A DNA stretch of 64,000 nucleotides. It comes from Albidovulum sp. (GTDB lineage: Bacteria; Pseudomonadota; Alphaproteobacteria; Rhodobacterales; Rhodobacteraceae). Location: the NCBI GenBank assembly GCA_028823855.1, contig JAPPFL010000068.1, forward strand, positions 62,001 through 126,000. The letters are read 5' to 3'. This document shows, in pieces, positions 1 to 10,804 of the stretch. Below the pieces are notes generated by a model. The model was not told where the DNA came from, searched no databases, and saw nothing but the letters and a program-made list of their open reading frames with translations. The translations under genes were made by a program, and so were the position numbers. Positions within the stretch are counted from its first letter, which is position 1, and the number at the start of each line of letters is the position of its first letter.

Positions 1-896
<896 letters not shown>

Positions 897-1250
897 CACG
901 AATTCTGCGGAGAATCCTAAAATCGTGCCTTCCGGAGGCTGCTGCCCACAATGCGTCGGTGTGTGAACAACACGCCGAAGGGCGTCCTGATCGCGCTTCC
1001 TGACCACTCAATCAGTAGGGCAATGAAAGTCGTTGTGCAATTGCCATTTAGCCCGAGCGGCGTTTGAGCGGCAGCGCCCGCCGCGCACTTGCGGAGACGG
1101 CCCCCGAACCGCCGCGCCACTGCGGTCGCTGCACATGTTCCCGCAGCGCAGGGTAGGGCCGTGCACACGTTACCGCTCCGCAGAGTTGCCGCCCGTAGCG
1201 ACGGCACGGCGGGCGATTGCGGCGTGTAACGTGGCGAGCTACAGTGACTC
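897..1250. other. gene-free stretch after mdh, left edge of inserted region
   Basis: No convincing gene. From about 1060 the sequence becomes visibly richer in G and C than mdh, which suggests the boundary between ancestral and acquired DNA. An 8-bp inverted repeat (cacgttac at 1166-1173, gtaacgtg at 1226-1233) lies just upstream of the higB remnant and may be an autoregulatory operator. A long minus-strand frame crossing this stretch has no family resemblance and is a by-product of the high GC. Confidence 0.5.
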
Positions 1251-1524
1251 GTGAGGATCAGGCACAAGGCACTGCGGGCACTACACGAACGCGACGACGC
1301 GGCGCGGCTGGCCGCCGGTCTCGCGCCACGGCTTCGGCGTATCCTGTTCCGTCTGCAAGAGGCGGCGCACCCGCAAGATGCCGACGCGCCGGGCTTCCGG
1401 CTGCATCCCCCGAAAGGCGACCGCGCGGGCCAGTGGGAGCGTTCGCGTCTCGGGCAACTGGCGCGTGGTGTTCCGCTTCGAGGACGGCGAGGCCGTGGAC
1501 GTGGACCTGATCGACTATCACTGA
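1251..1524 (+). pseudogene. higB: HigB-type toxin, frameshifted
   Basis: RelE/HigB-family mRNA-interferase toxin broken by one frameshift. From the GTG at 1251 the frame encodes the usual N-terminal part (RHKALRALHERDD, then LRRILFRLQEA and GFRLHPPKGDR), ending at GQW near 1436. One extra G in the run at 1434-1439 then moves the rest into the next frame, where the C-terminal half continues as SVRVSGNWRVVFRFEDG and VDVDLIDYH with a stop at 1522-1524. Both halves match the family at the right spacing, so a single base would restore an intact protein of about 90 residues. It lies 13 bp upstream of higA. A sequencing error at this base is possible. Confidence 0.8.
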
Positions 1525-1537
1525 CCGGAAAGGAGCG

Positions 1538-1936
1538 ATGACGATGAACGACATTGTGAGCGATCGCGTCGGGCCGATGCAGAACCCGCCGCACCTGGGC
1601 GAACTGATCCGCGAGAGCATGGACGATGTGGGCTGGAACGTGACCGAGACGGCGGCGCGTCTCGGCTGCGAGCGCGGAACGCTGTCGCGGCTGCTGAACG
1701 GCAAGGCGGGCGTGTCGGCGAACATGGCGTTGGCGCTGGAGGACATCGGCTGGGGCACAGCCGAACACTGGATGCGGATGAAGGCAAGCTACGAACTTGC
1801 GCAGGCGCGTCGCGAGAGGGTCGCCACCGAACGGCGTTCAAGCGCATGGCAGGGGTTTGATCCGTCTCATCGCTCAAGAGGCGTACTGAGAGGCTACACG
1901 GACCGCCCCCGAGCGTTCATTGTTGTGGTGATTTGA
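1538..1936 (+). CDS. higA: HigA-type antitoxin (XRE helix-turn-helix)
   Basis: DNA-binding antitoxin that would normally neutralise HigB and repress the operon. The core is typical: NPPHLGELIRESM, then a helix-turn-helix at about residues 36-57 (TETAARLGCERGTLSRLLNG), then the family tail around GWGTAEHWMRM. The start ATG at 1538 is preceded by AGGAG at 1531-1535. Family members usually end near residue 100. This one runs to 132 with a tail of no family resemblance (after about residue 104), so the original stop may have been lost. With its toxin frameshifted it may now act only as a DNA-binding protein. Confidence 0.85.
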   Translation: MTMNDIVSDRVGPMQNPPHLGELIRESMDDVGWNVTETAARLGCERGTLSRLLNGKAGVSANMALALEDIGWGTAEHWMRMKASYELAQARRERVATERRSSAWQGFDPSHRSRGVLRGYTDRPRAFIVVVI

Positions 1937-1957
1937 GGAAATCGGAGAATACCAGAA

Positions 1958-2389
1958 ATGCGCAGCACTGTTCTCTTAGGAGCAATTTTCGCGTTCGCCT
2001 TTTCTTTCCTATCTGGTTCGGCGACAGCGCAATCGCAATCCAGTAACGTTCACCAGTCCACAACACAGCCGACAGACGGAAGATATGAGATCGTGCAATC
2101 TCCCGTGGCGGCAAAATGGACCTTTCGGTTGGATCGGCAAAGAGGAAACGTAGATCAACTGGTCGAGACCCAAGACGGCGCACTGACGTGGCAGAGTATG
2201 TTCGTGTTGGGTCTGCCGGATGTATCTTCAGCGCGGAAAGCTAGATTTACAATATTTGCTTCGGGATTAGCAGCTCGATTTACCTTTCTGATAGATAACC
2301 AGACTGGTCAAACATGGGTTCTGAATTCCCTTTCGGATGCAGAAGACGGATCCGACCGCCTTGTTGGCTGGCTTCCGTTTCCAGAATGA
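1958..2389 (+). CDS. small secreted protein of unknown function
   Basis: I do not recognise the family. The 143-residue product starts with a clear Sec signal peptide: Arg at position 2, a hydrophobic core (LLGAIFAFAFSFL) and a probable cleavage site after ATA near residue 25. The mature part of about 118 residues has no cysteines. It contains alternating hydrophobic/polar stretches (KWTFRLDRQRGNVDQL, ARFTFLIDNQTGQTWVL) that look like two similar beta hairpins ending in a Gln/Thr-rich turn and Trp. It lies 21 bp after higA and 84 bp before the LysM-NERD gene, on the same strand. Base composition is less GC-rich than higBA, so the pair probably arrived separately from the toxin-antitoxin module. 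Confidence 0.7.
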   Translation: MRSTVLLGAIFAFAFSFLSGSATAQSQSSNVHQSTTQPTDGRYEIVQSPVAAKWTFRLDRQRGNVDQLVETQDGALTWQSMFVLGLPDVSSARKARFTIFASGLAARFTFLIDNQTGQTWVLNSLSDAEDGSDRLVGWLPFPE

Positions 2390-2473
2390 TAGTGAGGGGC
2401 CGGTTAGAAAAACTTCAAACGCTCCGTAGTCGCCGGCAGTCTCTGCCGATGGCACTTTGGGGCAGGGTCCGGC

Positions 2474-3580
2474 ATGAGTGAATTCATTGTAACGCATGTC
2501 CAACCGGGAGAAACGCTTTCCGGGATAGCTGCTAGGTATGGTGTCAGTGTGGACTCCTTGCAGAGATGGAACAGCATCGAAGATCCAGACTTGGTGCTGG
2601 TTGGCCAAAGGATCGTTGTCTACAAAGCGGCGGATGCGGCAGGATCCATCGTGTCGGCGAGTGCTGAATCGCGGGCAAGTTCCGATTCTCTGATAGCGAA
2701 TGATTCTCCAGATATAGCAGTCGGCGGCACTATCGCCTTAGGGCTCTTGCTTCTGCTGCTTCTACTTCGCCGAAAACGCCGTGGCGCAACCCCGATTCCT
2801 CGTGCTCCATCTCTTCGCCAGCCGCAACAACCCGTGTCGCGACGGGGAACGCCTGTCGCCAAGGGACAGGACAGTACGTTTGACTGGCCCACATCTGCCT
2901 CCGACCCGCTACCGAAGCCACAAGTCAATGACGGTGAACGCTTGGTTAGCGGCGAGTTGAGGCGGAGCTACCATGATTGGATATTAATCGATAACGTGAT
3001 GGTTCCAAGCGGCCAAGGAACTACTCAAATTGACCATATTTTGATATCTCCAAGGGCTGTATTTCTGATAGAGACCAAAGACATGAATGGATGGGTATTT
3101 GGAAGTCCCGGCGACAAGCAGTGGACGCAGTCGTATAAGGCGGGTCGCCGATCTCGCAAGGCTGGTATCAAGTCAAAGCAGTTCAAGTTCTATAACCCGC
3201 TATGGCAAAACGAAGGCCATGCAAAATCCCTTGTTAGGCTTGGCGTAGTTGATCGTTGGCGTGACCTTCGCCCGGTTGTGTTATTCGTCGGAGACTCCGA
3301 GTTGAAGACGGCAGGTAAATTCTTGCCATTTGGTGAACACGAGGAGATTGCGAGCCAAAACAGGACATGGCGGATGAGAGGTGTAGTCTGCATGAGCTTG
3401 GAAGAACTGAACCGTTACATCGAATTCTCGATCAATGCCTCCTCGAACTCTGGACTGACGCGTCAGCAAATGGAGTCGATCTGCGACAAGATCGGGACAA
3501 ATGAAATTCCTATGACTGACGAGTCCCACGCGAAACATGTCGATTTCGTTCAGTCTGTGAAGGAACTGAACTCACAGTAG
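2474..3580 (+). CDS. LysM - transmembrane - NERD nuclease-related protein
   Basis: A 368-residue three-part protein. Residues 5-51 form a LysM peptidoglycan-binding domain (PGETLSGIAARYGVS, then LVGQRIVVYK). Residues 81-98 are one membrane helix with eight consecutive leucines, followed by RRKRRG. A proline/serine-rich linker leads to a NERD domain from about residue 153. The NERD part shows the PD-(D/E)XK-like pattern: Glu161, Asp187 in QIDHILIS, and Glu200-x-Lys202 in LIETKD. There is no signal peptide. The positive cluster after the helix predicts N-out/C-in topology, so LysM would sit in the periplasm and the nuclease-like domain in the cytoplasm. NERD domains are known from restriction-like and DNA-processing contexts; the role here is unknown. 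Catalytic activity is inferred from motifs only. Confidence 0.85.
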   Translation: MSEFIVTHVQPGETLSGIAARYGVSVDSLQRWNSIEDPDLVLVGQRIVVYKAADAAGSIVSASAESRASSDSLIANDSPDIAVGGTIALGLLLLLLLLRRKRRGATPIPRAPSLRQPQQPVSRRGTPVAKGQDSTFDWPTSASDPLPKPQVNDGERLVSGELRRSYHDWILIDNVMVPSGQGTTQIDHILISPRAVFLIETKDMNGWVFGSPGDKQWTQSYKAGRRSRKAGIKSKQFKFYNPLWQNEGHAKSLVRLGVVDRWRDLRPVVLFVGDSELKTAGKFLPFGEHEEIASQNRTWRMRGVVCMSLEELNRYIEFSINASSNSGLTRQQMESICDKIGTNEIPMTDESHAKHVDFVQSVKELNSQ

Positions 3581-3606
3581 CCAAGTCTCTCCCGAGCGAC
3601 ACCCTT

Positions 3607-4170
3607 TTATTGTACGACAATCACGTTTCCTACCTTTTCCGCTGCTTCGACCAGATGCGCATCATCAAGATGGGCGTAGCTTGCCGTGGTCCGGTGCCGC
3701 CAATGCCCGATCAGCTTGCCGAACAAAGGCAGGTTCTCGCCCGCCATGACCGGGGCCTGGCTAGCCGTCGTGTGCCGGAAGTCATGCGGGCGCAGCCTGC
3801 CGAGCTTAGCGTCGGCGCATATCGTCCGCCAGCACGTCGTGAGGCTGTAGGCGCCCCGGCCTGCGGCGTGTCGCGGGAACAGGAACACATCCAGGTCGCA
3901 GCGACGGCCTCGAGCCAGCGGGCTTCATGGGCGTCGAGCGCGCGCCCGAGCCGGGCCGGCTCATCTGCGTCGAGGAAGCTGGCGAGGCTGTTCCTCGGGT
4001 TCTTCACGATACCGAGGCAGGGGTTTGAGCCGCGCTCGCGCGATCCCCACTCCTCGGCCAAGAACATCATCGCGCGCAGTATCTCGAAGGTGCGGTTCGC
4101 AGCGCCGCAGATACTCGTCCGCGAACTCCCGCAAGGTCGGAGTCTCCTTCTCGCGCTGGATGTCGTCGGC
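3607..4170 (-). pseudogene. tyrosine recombinase (phage-type integrase), broken
   Basis: Remnant of a site-specific integrase read on the minus strand in at least three frames. The N-terminal piece (PTLREFADEYLRRCEPH, near 4085-4150) resembles the SAM-like arm-binding domain. A second piece in another frame (LAEEWGSRERGSNPCLGI, then FLDADEPARLGRALDA) is the core-binding region. The last piece (3607-3888) has the catalytic RPHDFRHTTAS box, LIGHWRHRTTASYAHL with the active-site His and Tyr, and a typical end AAEKVGNVI. The part that should hold the first catalytic arginine is missing between pieces two and three, so an internal deletion is present as well as frameshifts. It is not functional and marks this region as a former mobile element. 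Confidence 0.82.
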
Positions 4171-4796
4171 GCGGCGTAAGCGGCAAAAATGGGACGTAGC
4201 GTTTTGTCCGGATTTCTCCGGCTTCAGGCCGCGGCCCTCGCACTAGGCGGCGGCGGTCGCGCCCTCCCGCTCGAAATCCTCGACGATCTCGCGCCGCTCC
4301 TCGGCACTTCTGATCACGGGCTCTTCGGCGACCCGCGCCGGAACGTTTATGACAATCCCTCCTTGCCGAAAATTTTGCGGCTCGAAGGTACCGACCGGGG
4401 CGGACCGGTCCAACCTAAAATCGAGACGTCGTAAAATAGCCGCTTACGTGCAAGATCCACCGGAGTGGATGCTTTATCTCTTCAAGGCTGGCAAGCTCCG
4501 TTCGATGATTGAGGTGGCGGGCTATCCGAGCGTCGCCGCTGATCTCGACGATGGTCTGATCGGATTCCTGATTTGCGGACTCGAGGCGCTGGCGCTTGAG
4601 ATGCAGCCAAGGCTGGCGGGCTGAAGAAGACCCGGCTCCTAACCGTACGCATTGCCCCGGACAACCGGTACGGCACTACACAGACAATCGCCACGGGACG
4701 CGACGGTCCGAGTCCGGATATCGCCAGCCGGGACACAGGTCGAGTGCGGGCCGGTATTGACGTATTCGCCCGGCCTTCGTCAAATACGGCCGCTGC
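4171..4796. other. gene-poor stretch between integrase relic and tRNA-Phe
   Basis: No complete gene is supportable. One plus-strand frame (about 4349-4624) contains a plausible protein-like run (QDPPEWMLYLFKAGKLRSM, then a stretch ending EMQPRLAG) but no recognisable family. A short minus-strand run ending at 4243 (EERREIVEDFEREG) recalls the first helix of a transposase but is too short to call. The stretch is probably eroded mobile-element DNA. Confidence 0.35.
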
Positions 4797-4872
4797 GGCC
4801 AAGTAGCCCAGTTGGTAGAGCGGCGGAATGAATATCCGCGTGTCGGCGGTTCGACTCCGCCCTTGGCGACCA
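4797..4872 (+). tRNA. tRNA-Phe (GAA), with atypical positions
   Basis: A 76-nt cloverleaf ending in encoded CCA. The anticodon stem GCGGA/TCCGC is perfect and the loop ATGAATA gives anticodon GAA. The T arm GGCGG-TTCGACT-CCGCC is perfect, and the acceptor pairs GCCAAG/CTTGGC over six of seven positions. Deviations are a G1:G72 mismatch, a C12:A23 mismatch in the D stem, A instead of C at position 32, and U at position 37 where Phe tRNAs normally carry A. It could be a functional divergent gene or a decaying copy; another tRNA-Phe elsewhere in the genome would favour the latter. tRNA genes are common integration sites and a broken integrase lies about 630 bp upstream. Confidence 0.75.
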
Positions 4873-5013
4873 TCTGAATCAACGACTTGCCCGACGATTT
4901 TTCGTTGAAAATCAATAACTTGCACTGATTCCCCCGAGTTCCCGAAGTTCGCAAGCGTCTTGCATCGTTCGCTATCGCGCGCTACGGAGGTCTTCCGAAA
5001 GGGAAATTGGACG

Positions 5014-5760
5014 GTGAGCAACCAAGGACATGACCGGCTGAAAGCCTCGTTCGCGCGCACTGTCGCTGCACGCGGCCGGCATTGGGCCGGTCATGGGCTG
5101 AAACTCCGGGCGACGGCGGTGGGGGCGAAGCAATGGGTTCGCGGCTTTGAAAAAGCGTTTGGTCGCCGGACATCCCGTCCGGTCCGCATCGCGGCGGCGC
5201 TCCTGCTCGTGACTTGCGCCTACCTGCTCGCGCCGTACGACGACGCGCAAGCCCAAGGTTTCCATTCGAAAGTCAAGCCGGCCATAGATTTGCGCCAATT
5301 GGAAAGCCGAATGCACGAGCTTGTCAATGCAGAACGGGTTAGGCATGGATCGCCCCCGCTGGAACACATAGAGAAACTCAGACTGATAGCTCGTTCACAC
5401 AGCAAGGACATGGCGAAGCGTGCCTACTTTGCGCATACAAGTCCCGAAGGACATAGTGCCACGGACAGGGGAAATCTGGTGGGATACAACTGCCGAAAGG
5501 ATAACGAATCCCGTTATACTTATAGAATTGCGGAAAACATTTATCAGTCTTGGTTGTACAATTCCTACAAAACGCTAAATGGCAGAATAGTATCGTATAA
5601 CTGGTTTACTCCTGAAGGACTGGCACGCAGAGTGGTCAAAGGCTGGATGCGCAGCAGGAAACACAAAGAAAATATTCTAAAGGCTTCGTACGAAGGGGCG
5701 GGCATGGGAGTAGCCATCGCAAAGGACGGCAAAGTCTATGCCACGCAAAACTTCTGCTGA
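5014..5760 (+). CDS. CAP-domain (SCP/PR1-like) protein
   Basis: A 248-residue protein with one N-terminal membrane or uncleaved signal segment (residues about 56-71, AAALLLVTCAYLLAPY) followed by a CAP domain. The CAP part begins at MHELVNAERVRHG and includes LIARSHSKDMAKRAYFAHTS with the family's first histidine, IAENIY with the conserved Glu, the second His in RSRKHKENIL, and a typical ending YATQNFC. CAP proteins are extracytoplasmic and bind small ligands or act in envelope processes; no reaction can be assigned. GTG at 5014 is chosen because AAAGGGA lies about 8 bases upstream and the longer in-frame extension to 4960 would reach back towards the tRNA with no ribosome-binding site. The 3' half is visibly AT-richer than its start. 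Confidence 0.82.
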   Translation: MSNQGHDRLKASFARTVAARGRHWAGHGLKLRATAVGAKQWVRGFEKAFGRRTSRPVRIAAALLLVTCAYLLAPYDDAQAQGFHSKVKPAIDLRQLESRMHELVNAERVRHGSPPLEHIEKLRLIARSHSKDMAKRAYFAHTSPEGHSATDRGNLVGYNCRKDNESRYTYRIAENIYQSWLYNSYKTLNGRIVSYNWFTPEGLARRVVKGWMRSRKHKENILKASYEGAGMGVAIAKDGKVYATQNFC

Positions 5761-7514
5761 AATCGAACGGCGTAGGAAATCGACTGAATAAATTGTGTCA
5801 TTTGGTGAGCATTTGATTGAGAAAATCGGAAGTACCAAAAGGCGTGGAGTATTCTTGCAGCGCTAGGGTCGCGGAAACAAAACGCCCTAGACCTGCGATG
5901 GAGGCTCCGCAATTTCGAATGTACGGCATGCGGCTACGCCGTCGCCCGCGGTCTTGTGCCGCCCGCATTTCACGATCAACGGCGCGCTCCATTCGACAGT
6001 GCCGACTTGGCCGCTCGCGCGGAGCTCATTGTTCTCGGGCTGGAAGCAGGGACGCTGGCGCGTAGTGATTTAGTATCAGGTACTTTAGCGGATCTGGGGG
6101 GTCTTGCTCCGGCACGGACGCCCTCGTCGGCTCGGGTGCCGAACTTGTTCTTAATTCGCTGCCTCCAGGAGTGCTTCGGAGATGCCTCGGAGTGCCTTGG
6201 CGCGGATTAGCGCGGTCTTGAAACGCGTAGCCGCGTCCAAGGTGCCTTGGATGTCGCACTACTCCTGCACTCCGGCGATATTGAGGTGCGCCTAGTCGCG
6301 ACAATTCGACTCTTTGATCTTCAAGACCATCGCTTGGGCTTCGGTGATGGAGCGGGTCGCGCCATCGCGGTTTCTCGCGTAGACCGCAGACGGGCAATTT
6401 TCGAATGGGCAAGCTCCCACTTGGCGTCCTTCGGACGTCGGTCTCGTAGGGCGTCGTTGCGTTCGAGGATCCTTGGCCGGCTACAGCGGCGGTGAGCAGT
6501 GCTATGTGCGTCTTGTCGCGACCCGGCCAAAGGCGGATTGGCGGCGAGAAACAGAACGCCCGCGGAAGTAGCGATGCAAGTTTGGCTCCTGATGCCGGCG
6601 ATCCACTGGGCCGCGGCAAAGTCAGCCTCGGAGGTAACGTCGCCGTGCCCGCCAAGTCCAGATCTCGACAAATGCCGGTTCTGTTGCGTTGTTCCCGGCC
6701 GCCAAGAGGACGTCCGCGGTACAGCTGTCACGGTTGAGCGCGACCGAAACGGTAAAGGGTCTCGGTCCGCGCTGCGCTTCGATGTACCCAATCGTTTCGG
6801 GATGTAGCGACCGACAAGCGGCGCAACAGAACGAATTTCCACGTCGGAGAGATCACCTTCGCCATTTGCCACAATCATTGGGATGCCAGCATCCATTGCC
6901 GCGCTGACCGGGGCATCATCATCCTGATTGAAGGGAGGTGGACGGGAATCCGACACCGCTATTGCGGTTCAACCGCTTCGAAGTGGAGCGCAGCCAATTC
7001 AATGCCCCGAAGGGCGAAAACCTAATCTACCGGATCGTTCCCACCGTTTTGGAATCCCAATCGGCTGGACCATCCGCCTGCTTCGGGTCCGGTTACCCTA
7101 CATGGTCGCGGCGGCCGGATTCGACGAAAATGCGTTAAATTCGACAAGAAAAGTTCCGCAAGGGTCCGATGGGCAATTTTGCCATGCATTCCGTTTTCGG
7201 CCCGAATAGCCGATGCCGCAATCGGTTGTTACCGTCGTAGCAATTTAGCGAGAAGATCGGCAATTGGTCTTCAAATGTGCCAGCGTTGTCTTCCCGACGG
7301 TAGCGGGAATAAAACGCGCCGCGTAACCGGGAGTAGCTCTCTGTACACACGGCGCACCGACGTTGGCGGCGGCGAGAGCGACAGTTCACTAGTTACCGCT
7401 GTGCACCGGGAGCACGATCACTTGTTTCCGAACCGCAAATTGATCGAAGTACATGTTCGCGCAGCGCAGCGAACACGTATGTTGTGCTAGGCGAGGCCAC
7501 CTCGGCGAAGTGCA
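5761..7514. other. 1.75-kb stretch without intact genes
   Basis: All frames are short and none has a start with a ribosome-binding site. Protein-like runs occur in shifting frames on the minus strand (see the separate entry at 6151-6956), which is what a gene decayed by several indels leaves behind. 5761-6150 and 6957-7514 show nothing I can name. Confidence 0.55.
6151..6956 (-). pseudogene. possible ghost of a periplasmic sugar-binding protein
   Basis: Low-confidence reading. The minus-strand frame from 6956 begins with residues like those in type-1 periplasmic binding proteins of sugar ABC transporters (DDDAPVSAAMDAGIPMIVANG, where an alternating small/hydrophobic run precedes A-G-I-P). 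A few residues later come GRYIPKRLG and, further on, EADFAAAQW, at roughly the spacing of that family. Between and after these the similarity jumps frames. A final open run (TLDAATRFKTALIRAKALRG) ends at a stop at 6151-6153. The evidence is a faint pattern only; it may equally be another family or chance. Confidence 0.22.
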
Positions 7515-7631
7515 ATGACGGATTTGATGGCACGCAACAGCGCACCTGTCAAAGCCGTAGCTAAACGCAGAGGCATCTCAATTGCATCGCAAGCACTGGG
7601 TAGGCTTCGGTTCGTTGAGCCTACGAAGGAC

Positions 7632-7916
7632 ATGGACGAGGAGACCATCGTTATTCAAAGTCTCGACGAGAACGTGAAACCCCGGTTTCGCAAACTTTCG
7701 ACACGCAAAGGACTTAGCATGGACGAGGAAGTACGGGCGACTTTGCGCGAGGCGGTCGGCCGGGAGGACGCGTCGAACAAAGGCTTTCAGACGGCGATCC
7801 ACGAACCGTTAAATTTCTTCGGCGTTGACGAATTGGAGTTGCTGCCGCCAGCGCTATACGCGACTACGCGTCGCTGGGCCCCGGCAACGCTCGAATTTTC
7901 CAAGATTCTTCGCTGA
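7632..7916 (+). CDS. FitA-like ribbon-helix-helix antitoxin
   Basis: A 94-residue product from the ATG at 7632 with the FitA antitoxin pattern. The N-terminal strand IVIQSLDENVKPRFR and the helix LSTRKGLSMDEEVRATLREAV form a ribbon-helix-helix DNA-binding fold. The toxin-binding tail ends in GVDELELLPPAL. Family members usually have about 80 residues; the last 20 or so here (TTRRWAPATLEFSKILR) look unlike the family and may reflect loss of the original stop. An in-frame GTG-type extension to 7515 exists but adds a segment with no resemblance. A PIN-domain toxin relic follows directly. Confidence 0.65.
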   Translation: MDEETIVIQSLDENVKPRFRKLSTRKGLSMDEEVRATLREAVGREDASNKGFQTAIHEPLNFFGVDELELLPPALYATTRRWAPATLEFSKILR

Positions 7917-7925
7917 CTGGCGCTT

Positions 7926-8165
7926 CTGGTGCTTGACACAAACCCCGGCTCCGGATTGCGCCCTGAACCGCCGAGACCGCCGGAAGCGTGGCTTCCTGAC
8001 CCCGAGGTCCCGATCGACACCAACCATCTGCACGCGACGCGAGCGTAAAGGCCGCGCATGGCATGGAAGGACCCCTCAAGGCTGGCAAACACATCCAGCC
8101 GTGCGCAACGTCGTAACGACCGAATACAAGGCGGGCTTCAACTATGGCTGTGTGAATTCGCCATT
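7926..8165 (+). pseudogene. PIN-domain toxin (FitB/VapC-like) remnant
   Basis: Directly after the FitA-like antitoxin the plus strand reads LLVLDTN, the usual opening of a PIN-domain ribonuclease with its first catalytic Asp, followed by a run resembling the early family region (LRPEPPRPPEAWLPDPE). Near 8103-8160 a second piece reads RNVVTTEYKAGFN then VNSP, reminiscent of the C-terminal ATRNxxDF and VNP motifs. The middle of the protein, roughly 60-70 residues with the other acidic catalytic positions, is missing and the pieces are not in one clean frame. A deleted, inactive toxin is the simplest explanation. Confidence 0.5.
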
Positions 8166-8220
8166 TATCCAACACGATTATGTACGCGGAGCCAGCTTTC
8201 TTGAATAAAACGGCAGGCTC

Positions 8221-9250
8221 ATGCCGTTCTCCTTTGCAGATTCGGATCGCTTTGACGACTATTGGAGCCTTCGCCGAGACTGCGCGATGATCCCGACGGT
8301 GGAGTTGCCGACGCGGACCGAAGGACGGGATGCCGAGGAGTTGTGCAACAAGGTGTTCACGCGGGATGTAACATGGTTGAAGGTGGGCCGTTGACTCTAC
8401 GATCTGGCCCGCTACTCGGATGAAGGGTTGCTAGTGGACGGGATCCTAATGCGACTGCGCCCGCAGCGGTCTCGGTATGTGCAGGCTGCGGGGCAGATGT
8501 TCGCCTGGCTGGTCGCGCAGGGGAAGGGAATGGACGTGGCAATCACCGATCCAGAAGTGTGGGTCAATCAGGTGCAGGGTCCCACGTCGCTAGCTGTTCT
8601 GGATGCCGCCTGCGGTGGCGGGCGGCCCGATCCGTTTGGATACTTTGGAATCGCCGAGGTCGGCGTGGGCGGGCAACGCGTCGTCGTAACCCGCGCTGGC
8701 TTCTCGACCGAGATGGGCTGGGAGTACTACAACGACACCCGGAACCGAATGAGACGCGTTGTGGGCGCATTTGATGGCGGCGGCGGGCGCACCTTTCGGG
8801 ATGGTGCATAAAGGGCTCGATATCCGGCGAATCGAGGCGGGCATTTTGAACGCCGCGCCCGACTTTGAACGCACCATGAATCCCTTCGAGGCTGGGCTGA
8901 GCCGGTTTGTCGATTTGGCCAATCCGGATTTGATCGGCAAGGCCGCTTTGGCCTTTGGCTCCCGCGGGCGGCGCCTGCTTGGGCTGCGGTGCGCCGGAGT
9001 CGAGCCACAGATCGGAAGCACGGTTAGCCTCGACGGAACAGACATCGGGCACGTTTGCGCTGGCTCGTGGTCGCCATAGCTGGAGTTCGGGATCGGATAT
9101 GCGCGTTTGGACCGGACCGGACCAAGCGCGGGGGACGACATCGAACTGGCCGGCGTAGACGGCGCGCGGCGCGCGGCAGAGTTAGTTGATTTGCCGTTCT
9201 ACGACGCAGAGAAGAAAATCCCGCGCGGACTGGAAAGGCCTAAGTTCTAG
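8221..9250 (+). pseudogene. aminomethyltransferase-family (GcvT/DmdA-like) pseudogene
   Basis: Decayed member of the folate-binding aminomethyltransferase family that includes GcvT and DMSP demethylase. The first frame starts at 8221 (MPFSFADSDRFDDYWSLRR), is interrupted by an in-frame TGA at 8392-8394, and continues through VQAAGQMFAWLVAQGKGMD, VNQVQGPTSLAVLDAA and RAGFSTEMGWEYY. Frame changes occur at about 8745-8765. The second frame reads LMAAAGAPFGM, IRRIEAGILN, MNPFEAGLSRFVDL, and LIGKAAL, meets a TAG at 9077-9079, and runs on to a stop at 9248-9250. The order and spacing follow the family throughout, so the gene is nearly full length but has at least two stops and a frameshift. It is non-functional as sequenced. 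It overlaps the end of the convergent EamA gene by 11 bp. Confidence 0.82.
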
Positions 9251-10139
9251 CGCGTGCGGTACCGAGGATCATCAAGGGCTCAAGCAGGCTGGCGCAGGCG
9301 ATCAGAGTCACGCCTATCGTTTCCCGCAGCCCAAACGGCTCGCCGGCGAACAGTGCCGCGGAAATCGCCCCAACAACGATTTCAGTCATGAATAGCAGGC
9401 TCGCAACCGCGGGGTTCACGTATTTTGGGCCCCAAAGAGACGCATAGGTGCCGGGGATCACAAGCAAGATTACAAACAGGATCAGACCGGGCAGCGCAGG
9501 GCTAGTCTGATCCAAGGCCGGTGCGTGGCCGGGGGACAACGCAAGCGCCGTCGCGCCGGAAAGGACGAGGCCGCACAGGAAGAACCCGCAGGTCAGGTCC
9601 ATGGCCGAATGATCCTCGTGCATGCGTACGCGCACAACCGTCAGCGCCCAAAAAAAACCGCCCGCAAGGCCCATCCAATCGCCGATGTTGCGCGGCACCG
9701 GCCATCCGACGCCCAGTCCGAACAGCACCAGCATCCCCAGGGCGGCCAAGGACATGGCTATAATTCGGATCGGCAAAATGCGCTCGCCCAGCAGGGCCCG
9801 GGCCAAAATCGCGCTCCATATCGGCATCAGGTAGAACAGCATCAGCGCGCGAATTACGTCAGTGAAAACGATCGAGGCGGAATAGAGCGTCAGCGCCATG
9901 CCGCTCGTGACGACGGTAAGCAGTAGCGGCAACCCGGCGCGACGGATGCGCGCCCGCCGCAATGCAACAACTGGCAAGACAAACAGGGACGGGACCGCGA
10001 AATAGACGACCATGGCCCACAAATCGTGCAGCCCCGCAGATTCGAGGCCGCGAAGCGGAATCCAGAACAGCCCCCAGACCGCGCCCGCGTAGAGGCACGC
10101 AAGCCTTGCACGAGTATCAAGAGAAAATGCCAAGACCAT
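9240..10139 (-). CDS. EamA/DMT-family transporter
   Basis: A 299-residue integral membrane protein of the drug/metabolite transporter superfamily, with about ten hydrophobic helices arranged as two EamA repeats. Typical features are the early LYAGAVWGLFWIPLRGL, the FYLMPIWSAILARALLGERI segment ending the first repeat, and the matching TEIVVGAISAALFAGEPFG near the end of the second. It probably exports a small metabolite or amino acid; the substrate cannot be read from sequence. ATG at 10139 is preferred over an upstream GTG at 10172 because the extension is Arg/Pro-rich and not family-like. It appears intact, unlike its neighbours to the left. Confidence 0.88.
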   Translation of the reverse strand: MVLAFSLDTRARLACLYAGAVWGLFWIPLRGLESAGLHDLWAMVVYFAVPSLFVLPVVALRRARIRRAGLPLLLTVVTSGMALTLYSASIVFTDVIRALMLFYLMPIWSAILARALLGERILPIRIIAMSLAALGMLVLFGLGVGWPVPRNIGDWMGLAGGFFWALTVVRVRMHEDHSAMDLTCGFFLCGLVLSGATALALSPGHAPALDQTSPALPGLILFVILLVIPGTYASLWGPKYVNPAVASLLFMTEIVVGAISAALFAGEPFGLRETIGVTLIACASLLEPLMILGTARART

Positions 10140-10804
10140 CGCGAATAAAGGCGGCCGGCGCGGGCGACACATAGCTTGAGAAAAATCTTGCCTCTCGGGG
10201 GCAATTCCAGCCCCGTGCAGGAAAGTGCGCCAACGATTTGGAAGACCGAATAAACCCGGCCAATTGTGGAATTTTCGGCGAGAATGAAGTGAACATGGGT
10301 GAGTCCGGCATCGGGAATCGAGGTTTTACGACGTGTTTCAAACCTAGGATTCCGATACAGCAAAGTACTAGGGCTTTTATGCAAGCGCTAAGAAAAATCC
10401 AAGCCCGCTAGCCGAACCATTTTGCTCTGAACAGAAGGAAGCCCGATATTGCAAGGACTAGGAAATCTCGATTCTGAATAGGCGAAAAACAATTTCGAGA
10501 GGGATTCCAATCTCGCCAGGTGCGTGATTCAAGGCATTCGATCAACGATCGCTAATGTAGTCCCACATGACGTCGTCAACGACCGCGCTCTTCTATCGTC
10601 TCGACGAATTCAGAGTACGTTCATACTTTGGGCTCACGAGCCGACGCGAATTTGTGCGCAAGTCCAATTTGCATTACGGATGTTTTTCAAGCGCAAATTC
10701 GATTCGAGCTTTCTCGATTTGTCGAAGTTGCGCTAAGCTCGGAAACGGATTGTTGGACGGCGGCTTTCGGTAAAAGCAATATTCGGAGAGGATAGGCGGT
10801 CAGT
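10140..10804. other. 665-bp intergenic region upstream of sucC
   Basis: Divergent spacer between the EamA gene and the suc operon; it must hold the sucC promoter now that mdh is remote. AT content rises towards 10500-10720. No tRNA, riboswitch or recognisable gene is seen. GAGAGG at about 10788-10793 and AGGCGG at 10794-10799 precede the sucC ATG. Confidence 0.5.

Follow-up and report, generated by a model that had tools for sequence, protein, structure and literature searches.

A LysM-transmembrane-NERD protein predicted to hold a nuclease-like domain beneath the inner membrane

Genes and domains at the locus

The window analysed here is a 64,000-nucleotide stretch of DNA from Albidovulum sp. 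(contig JAPPFL010000068.1, positions 62,001 to 126,000). Near its start lies a gene for a protein in which a LysM domain, one transmembrane (TM) helix and a NERD domain follow each other within 368 residues (Table 1). An earlier sequence-only reading had described this arrangement, and the intact open reading frame, Pfam and hydropathy bear it out. LysM and NERD are the only domains above the Pfam cut-offs. The LysM profile (PF01476) matched with 52 bits against a gathering score of 20.9, and the NERD profile (PF08378) with 85 bits against 22.1 (E 6.7e-24); because both exceed their gathering cut-offs, chance is excluded for either match. The helix at residues 80–98 is the sole hydrophobic segment (mean Kyte–Doolittle value 2.4) and runs directly into R99RKRR103. 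Judged by its profile, the LysM domain would bind peptidoglycan. No second NERD domain was found in the genome to which the window belongs.

Table 1. Positions of the genes, domains and residues discussed in the text. Positions refer to the window unless a locus is named.
Feature	Position	Strand	Basis or remark
Cassette-edge sequence	951–1117	.	Directly repeated on both flanks of the unit in L025; probably att-like
HigB-like toxin gene	1251–1524	+	Carries a frameshift; the copies in L025 and L026 are intact
HigA-like HTH antitoxin gene	1538–1936	+	About 90% identical in L025/L026; different HigA in L023/L024
Small exported protein gene	1958–2389	+	Signal-peptide-like N terminus; 84 nt upstream of LysM-NERD
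LysM-TM-NERD gene	2474–3580	+	ATG start, intact 368-aa ORF; Pfam LysM and NERD; full-length relatives
LysM domain, residues 8–49	2495–2620	+	Pfam E 6.7e-14; dN/dS
Transmembrane helix, residues 80–98	2711–2767	+	Hydropathy, single segment
RRKRR stop-transfer cluster, residues 99–103	2768–2782	+	Cytoplasmic by the positive-inside rule; charge counts, 8 homologues
Low-complexity linker, residues 104–148	2783–2917	+	Length varies among relatives (alignment); relaxed selection
NERD domain (PD-(D/E)XK-like), residues 152–257	2927–3244	+	Pfam; residue invariance; model
NERD residue E155	2936–2938	+	
NERD residue D187	3032–3034	+	
NERD residue E200	3071–3073	+	
NERD residue K202	3077–3079	+	
C-terminal extension of NERD part, residues 258–368	3245–3577	+	Alignment; without the zinc ribbon typical of most TM-NERD relatives
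Tyrosine-integrase C-terminal remnant, cassette border	3607–3888	-	Pfam Phage_integrase 1.5e-6; same border in L025
Type II cas2 gene	L061 2–403		Just upstream of the LysM-helicase gene, at contig edge
LysM-TM-helicase gene	L061 about 706 to 3939		LysM, TM, helicase IV-type UvrD helicase, topoisomerase zinc ribbons
TM-NERD genes ending traD-DUF4400-S49 peptidase operon	L170 3908–4639; L171 3923–4696		IncHI-type conjugative plasmids, Klebsiella and other enterobacteria

The gene forms part of a cassette (951–3899), pieces of which are 76–87% identical at the DNA level to loci L025 and L026 in metagenome-assembled genomes (MAGs) labelled alpha- and gammaproteobacterial. These two loci are 92–93% identical to each other over 4360–7205, with unrelated left flanks. 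Integrase genes or their remnants lie at the cassette borders. The L025 unit is flanked on both sides by a direct repeat of about 140 bp, which would fit an integrative unit; in the window's own genome the cassette-edge sequence is present as a single copy. The window unit is placed inside a stretch of about 10 kb of mobile and remnant genes (897–10804) that split a TCA-cycle gene cluster between mdh and sucC (names assigned by sequence resemblance). The same stretch includes a tRNA-Phe (4797–4872) and a CAP-domain protein (4960–5760).

HigBA-like pairs were identified on the same strand upstream of the LysM-NERD gene in five loci (the window, L023, L024, L025 and L026). Two distinct pairs, about 40% identical, occupy this place (L023 1131–1840 and L025 4788–5394), although the LysM-NERD genes that follow them are closely related. 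Either gene decay or a mistake in assembly may explain the frameshift in the window higB. Three of the eight loci have the small exported protein, with about 78% identity; it matched nothing in Pfam or NCBIfam. In L027 and L028 the LysM-NERD gene has neither HigBA nor the exported protein beside it and lies in ordinary surroundings, showing that it can stand alone. Scans of the cassette for promoters and terminators performed no better than on shuffled sequence.

Conservation, fold and predicted topology

The complete LysM-TM-NERD arrangement was found in seven further loci, all MAG contigs with alpha- or gammaproteobacterial labels in their titles, at 53–79% identity. Since the whole architecture recurs in seven other loci, the window gene is no assembly chimera. 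The module is sparse: the full LysM-TM part occurs in 2 of 395 sampled genomes of the family, and class-wide and wider genome searches found it outside that sample in the known carriers only. With the LysM-TM profile, the wider searches mostly returned matches to the LysM part, and no new family-like helix followed LysM among the loci fetched. Viral contigs, searched with the full protein and with LysM-TM, held no relative with both parts.

E155, D187, E200 and K202, together with the LysM core, are invariant in an alignment of seven LysM-TM-NERD proteins, and the four NERD residues are also invariant across 30 aligned NERD sequences. Of the catalytic residues named in the sequence-only reading, D187 and E200-x-K202 were correct and are missing from none of the aligned homologues. 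Glu161 was not: this position is S, K or E among relatives, and the conserved glutamate of helix 1 is E155. Pairwise dN/dS values were calculated by the Nei–Gojobori method against L023, L025, L027, L028 and L029, with distant pairs near saturation; they came to about 0.14–0.22 for LysM (0.375 against L026), about 0.11–0.16 for NERD and about 0.35–1 for the linkers. The most informative pairs gave 0.14–0.25 for LysM, and residues 106–148 gave about 0.3–1. The LysM and NERD domains are under purifying selection and the linkers are not. The low values at LysM and NERD indicate that both ends of the protein are retained for function.

Modelling the full protein with AlphaFold2 and seven close sequences gave a pLDDT of 46, and this model was set aside. 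When 30 diverse NERD sequences, most of them from viral contigs, were supplied instead, residues 141–368 reached a pLDDT of 86 and a pTM of 0.84. The predicted structure has the PD-(D/E)XK nuclease-like core that the earlier reading had expected: helix 1 carries E155, strand 2 carries D187, and strand 3 carries both E200 and K202. Its best matches are nucleases of this superfamily. Foldseek matches were weak yet consistent (best E 9.8e-4). VIA-align returned Cdn1/Can2/Card1, McrC, Hjc, Bax1, SduA and LmuA, all of them PD-(D/E)XK enzymes, at Z 5.6–9.1, where a Z below about 8 can by itself reflect a common arrangement. Because low Z scores alone are ambiguous, weight was put on profile, residues and fold jointly. 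Taken together, these three place the protein in the NERD family of the PD-(D/E)XK superfamily, with predicted nuclease activity. A sequence search of the PDB returned LysM structures only, with NERD absent.

Charge counts on seven distinct LysM-NERD proteins and on a helicase fusion with the same N-terminal part (see below) gave a net negative charge before the helix and a net positive charge after it. In the window protein the N-terminal side carries 5 positive and 10 negative residues, and the 25 residues past the helix carry 8 positive and none negative. From this bias, which holds in every homologue and in the helicase fusion, we predict an N-out/C-in orientation with LysM outside and NERD inside, in agreement with the trans-envelope topology first proposed. 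The protein has no apparent cleavable signal peptide; its N-terminal 80 residues would therefore need N-tail translocation, a process known for some proteins. Cytoplasmic LysM domains are also known, as in Kbp/YgaU; the charge bias disfavours such a location here.

Relatives of the two halves

The nearest relatives of the NERD part are small proteins with a short N-terminal helix, a NERD domain and a zinc ribbon, found in other Proteobacteria, on plasmids and in viral contigs. A clear N-terminal helix was seen in 15 of 22 viral-contig NERD ORFs checked, and a zinc-ribbon-like pattern in 18 of the 22. These proteins of about 250 residues share the short N-out helix and the NERD family with the window protein (26–44% identity); unlike it, they lack LysM, and most end in a topoisomerase zinc ribbon that is absent from LysM-TM-NERD. 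On IncHI-type plasmids the TM-NERD gene comes last in an operon of traD, a hypothetical gene, DUF4400, an S49 peptidase and NERD. In a Vibrio IncP plasmid the gene follows trb genes, and 1841 of the 1978 plasmids with a match were typed as conjugative. Membrane-bound NERD proteins are thus repeatedly placed with DNA-transfer machinery, which they could either help or block. We found no described function in the literature for the TM-NERD proteins of IncHI conjugation operons.

The LysM-TM half has a second enzyme partner. Searching the class with the full-length profile brought up one protein that matched LysM-TM only (residues 2–109, 100.7 bits, E 1.2e-28), while the next LysM-only matches reached 39 bits. 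In this protein, encoded at the single locus L061, the module precedes a helicase with intact motifs. Among the helicase IV/HelD-type UvrD helicases that carry zinc ribbons, three plasmid-borne relatives were inspected, and these have no LysM and no clear membrane helix at the N terminus. The module therefore adds envelope placement to an otherwise soluble enzyme and is portable. The helicase-bearing genome (G423) and the NERD-bearing genome of L023 (G1139) share one genus. Genes for a TrwC relaxase and for HsdM and HsdS (type I restriction) lie downstream of the fusion, and no CRISPR repeats were found between the adjacent cas2, at the contig end, and the LysM-helicase gene. NERD and UvrD have been listed separately as putative CRISPR auxiliary genes in a large survey (PMC10910872).

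Known defence genes were seen beside the helicase fusion only and beside none of the NERD loci; in the window the neighbours are the HigBA-like pair, the small exported protein and the integrase remnant. The defence role suggested by the sequence-only reading is a plausible hypothesis; the neighbours of the window gene are not known defence genes, but cas2 and type I restriction genes do lie beside its sister fusion.

Possible functions and known systems

Our preferred reading, to which we assign a probability of roughly 0.45, is that LysM-TM-NERD is a nuclease of the inner membrane, tethered to the wall, which cuts DNA in transit across the envelope. LysM would grip the periplasmic peptidoglycan, and a linker of 14–37 residues and one helix would bridge it to the inner membrane, leaving the PD-(D/E)XK domain hanging in the cytoplasm just beneath. 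There it could cut DNA entering by phage injection or conjugation, and placement, not sequence, would separate foreign DNA from the host chromosome. What the computations show are the domains, the topology signal, the fold, the conserved residues, selection on both ends, the sharing of the module and its horizontal spread; peptidoglycan binding, nuclease activity and the defence role are what we infer. To call the protein a sensor, as was first done, goes beyond the evidence; LysM may be an anchor only. A broader and more tentative proposal, which we hold to be possible rather than probable, is that LysM-TM acts as a portable wall-and-membrane address, grafted onto different DNA-processing enzymes (a nuclease and, in a related genome, helicase IV) to give an undescribed class of single-chain, wall-anchored defences at the point of DNA entry.

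The same cutting mechanism might serve a different beneficiary. A nuclease that guards a resident integrative element by cutting incoming plasmid or element DNA would agree with the integrases at the cassette borders, the final position of TM-NERD relatives in conjugation operons and the TrwC relaxase next to the helicase fusion. Its mechanism overlaps with that of our preferred reading, however; the LysM version was found on no complete conjugative element, and searches of plasmids and phages with the full-length protein and with LysM-TM gave no relative with both parts. We regard exclusion as unlikely.

A role in wall growth or division is about equally improbable. Normal septa depend on the Staphylococcus aureus protein SmdA, in which an N-out helix in the membrane is joined to a NERD domain in the cytoplasm (PMC9040797), and a protein of this kind could connect the wall machinery with the nucleoid or with division proteins and take no action against foreign DNA. 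LysM would offer direct wall contact, and the genes in L027 and L028 lie outside any evident defence island. Set against this, the gene is a very sparse, horizontally spread accessory and its module is also found on a helicase. SmdA is an essential division factor confined to one bacterial family. It further lacks LysM and, by its published description, on which this comparison is based, several of the best-conserved NERD residues (PMC9040797); the catalytic residues are invariant here.

In a third reading, LysM would sense damage to the wall, or lysis, in the course of infection; NERD would then degrade all DNA, with HigBA belonging to the same growth-arrest cassette. The recurrence of two distinct HigBA pairs upstream of the gene in five loci agrees with such a suicide nuclease, as does Zorya, which requires peptidoglycan binding and whose immunity at the level of the population involves damage to the host chromosome (PMC11890865). 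However, no HigBA was identified beside L027–L029, the window higB is frameshifted while LysM-NERD is intact, and there is no sign of a signal passing through the single helix; we doubt this reading to a similar degree.

The least probable reading is that the protein serves as a housekeeping anchor in DNA repair or in organising the nucleoid, or that it is a decayed fusion with no specific function. NERD and helicase IV are DNA-processing families, and the surrounding island contains gene remnants; against this reading stand the strong purifying selection on both domains and, for a housekeeping role, the rarity and horizontal spread.

Should the wall-tethered nuclease be real, a single protein reaching from wall to cytoplasm would let cells distinguish foreign DNA from their own purely by where it is. 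A role would then also suggest itself for the many NERD proteins bound to membranes, among them those of IncHI conjugation operons, and the swap of nuclease for helicase makes LysM-TM N termini a search handle for further enzymes of this type.

Among known systems, the NERD proteins PglW of BREX and mad6 of MADS are fused to a Ser/Thr kinase and act with partners, and the window protein is not of that kind: it scored 40 bits against a cut-off of 460 for MAD6, in the NERD part only, and 14 bits against 990 for PglW. PglW was also the sole match in PADLOC (E 0.028), where no family covers LysM-TM-NERD; neither NCBIfam nor PADLOC covers it beyond its single domains. Our search of the open-access literature found no paper that treats LysM and NERD domains together, consistent with the earlier remark that no such architecture had been described. 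The parts are known; as far as we have seen, the LysM-NERD combination and the module swap are new to the literature.

Two anti-phage systems come closest. SNIPE of E. coli has a periplasmic N terminus, one helix and a cytoplasmic nuclease, and cleaves phage DNA during injection; the N-terminal regions of its homologues vary widely (PMC13190303). Like LysM-TM-NERD, whose topology is here predicted by charge bias, it is one polypeptide with an N-out single-pass helix and a cytoplasmic nuclease. It differs in having DUF4041 and GIY-YIG domains, neither of which Pfam detects in LysM-TM-NERD, in place of NERD and the LysM N terminus; LysM and NERD are unmentioned in the main text of the SNIPE study (PMC13190303). 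Zorya couples peptidoglycan contact to cytoplasmic DNA-degrading effectors (PMC11890865, PMC12904381), and shares with LysM-TM-NERD a periplasmic peptidoglycan-binding part, here the predicted role of LysM, tied across the inner membrane to a DNA-degrading function. Zorya, however, is built from several proteins, with an ion-driven ZorA/ZorB motor and effectors separate from it, whereas LysM-TM-NERD is one chain with no motor: it has no match to ZorA/ZorB domains or Zorya models, and none of the neighbouring genes that were identified is a motor gene. By analogy, the wall-anchored nuclease would resemble SNIPE in its mode of action and Zorya in its contact with the wall, yet belong to neither system, uniting the wall contact of the one and the tethered nuclease of the other in a single chain.
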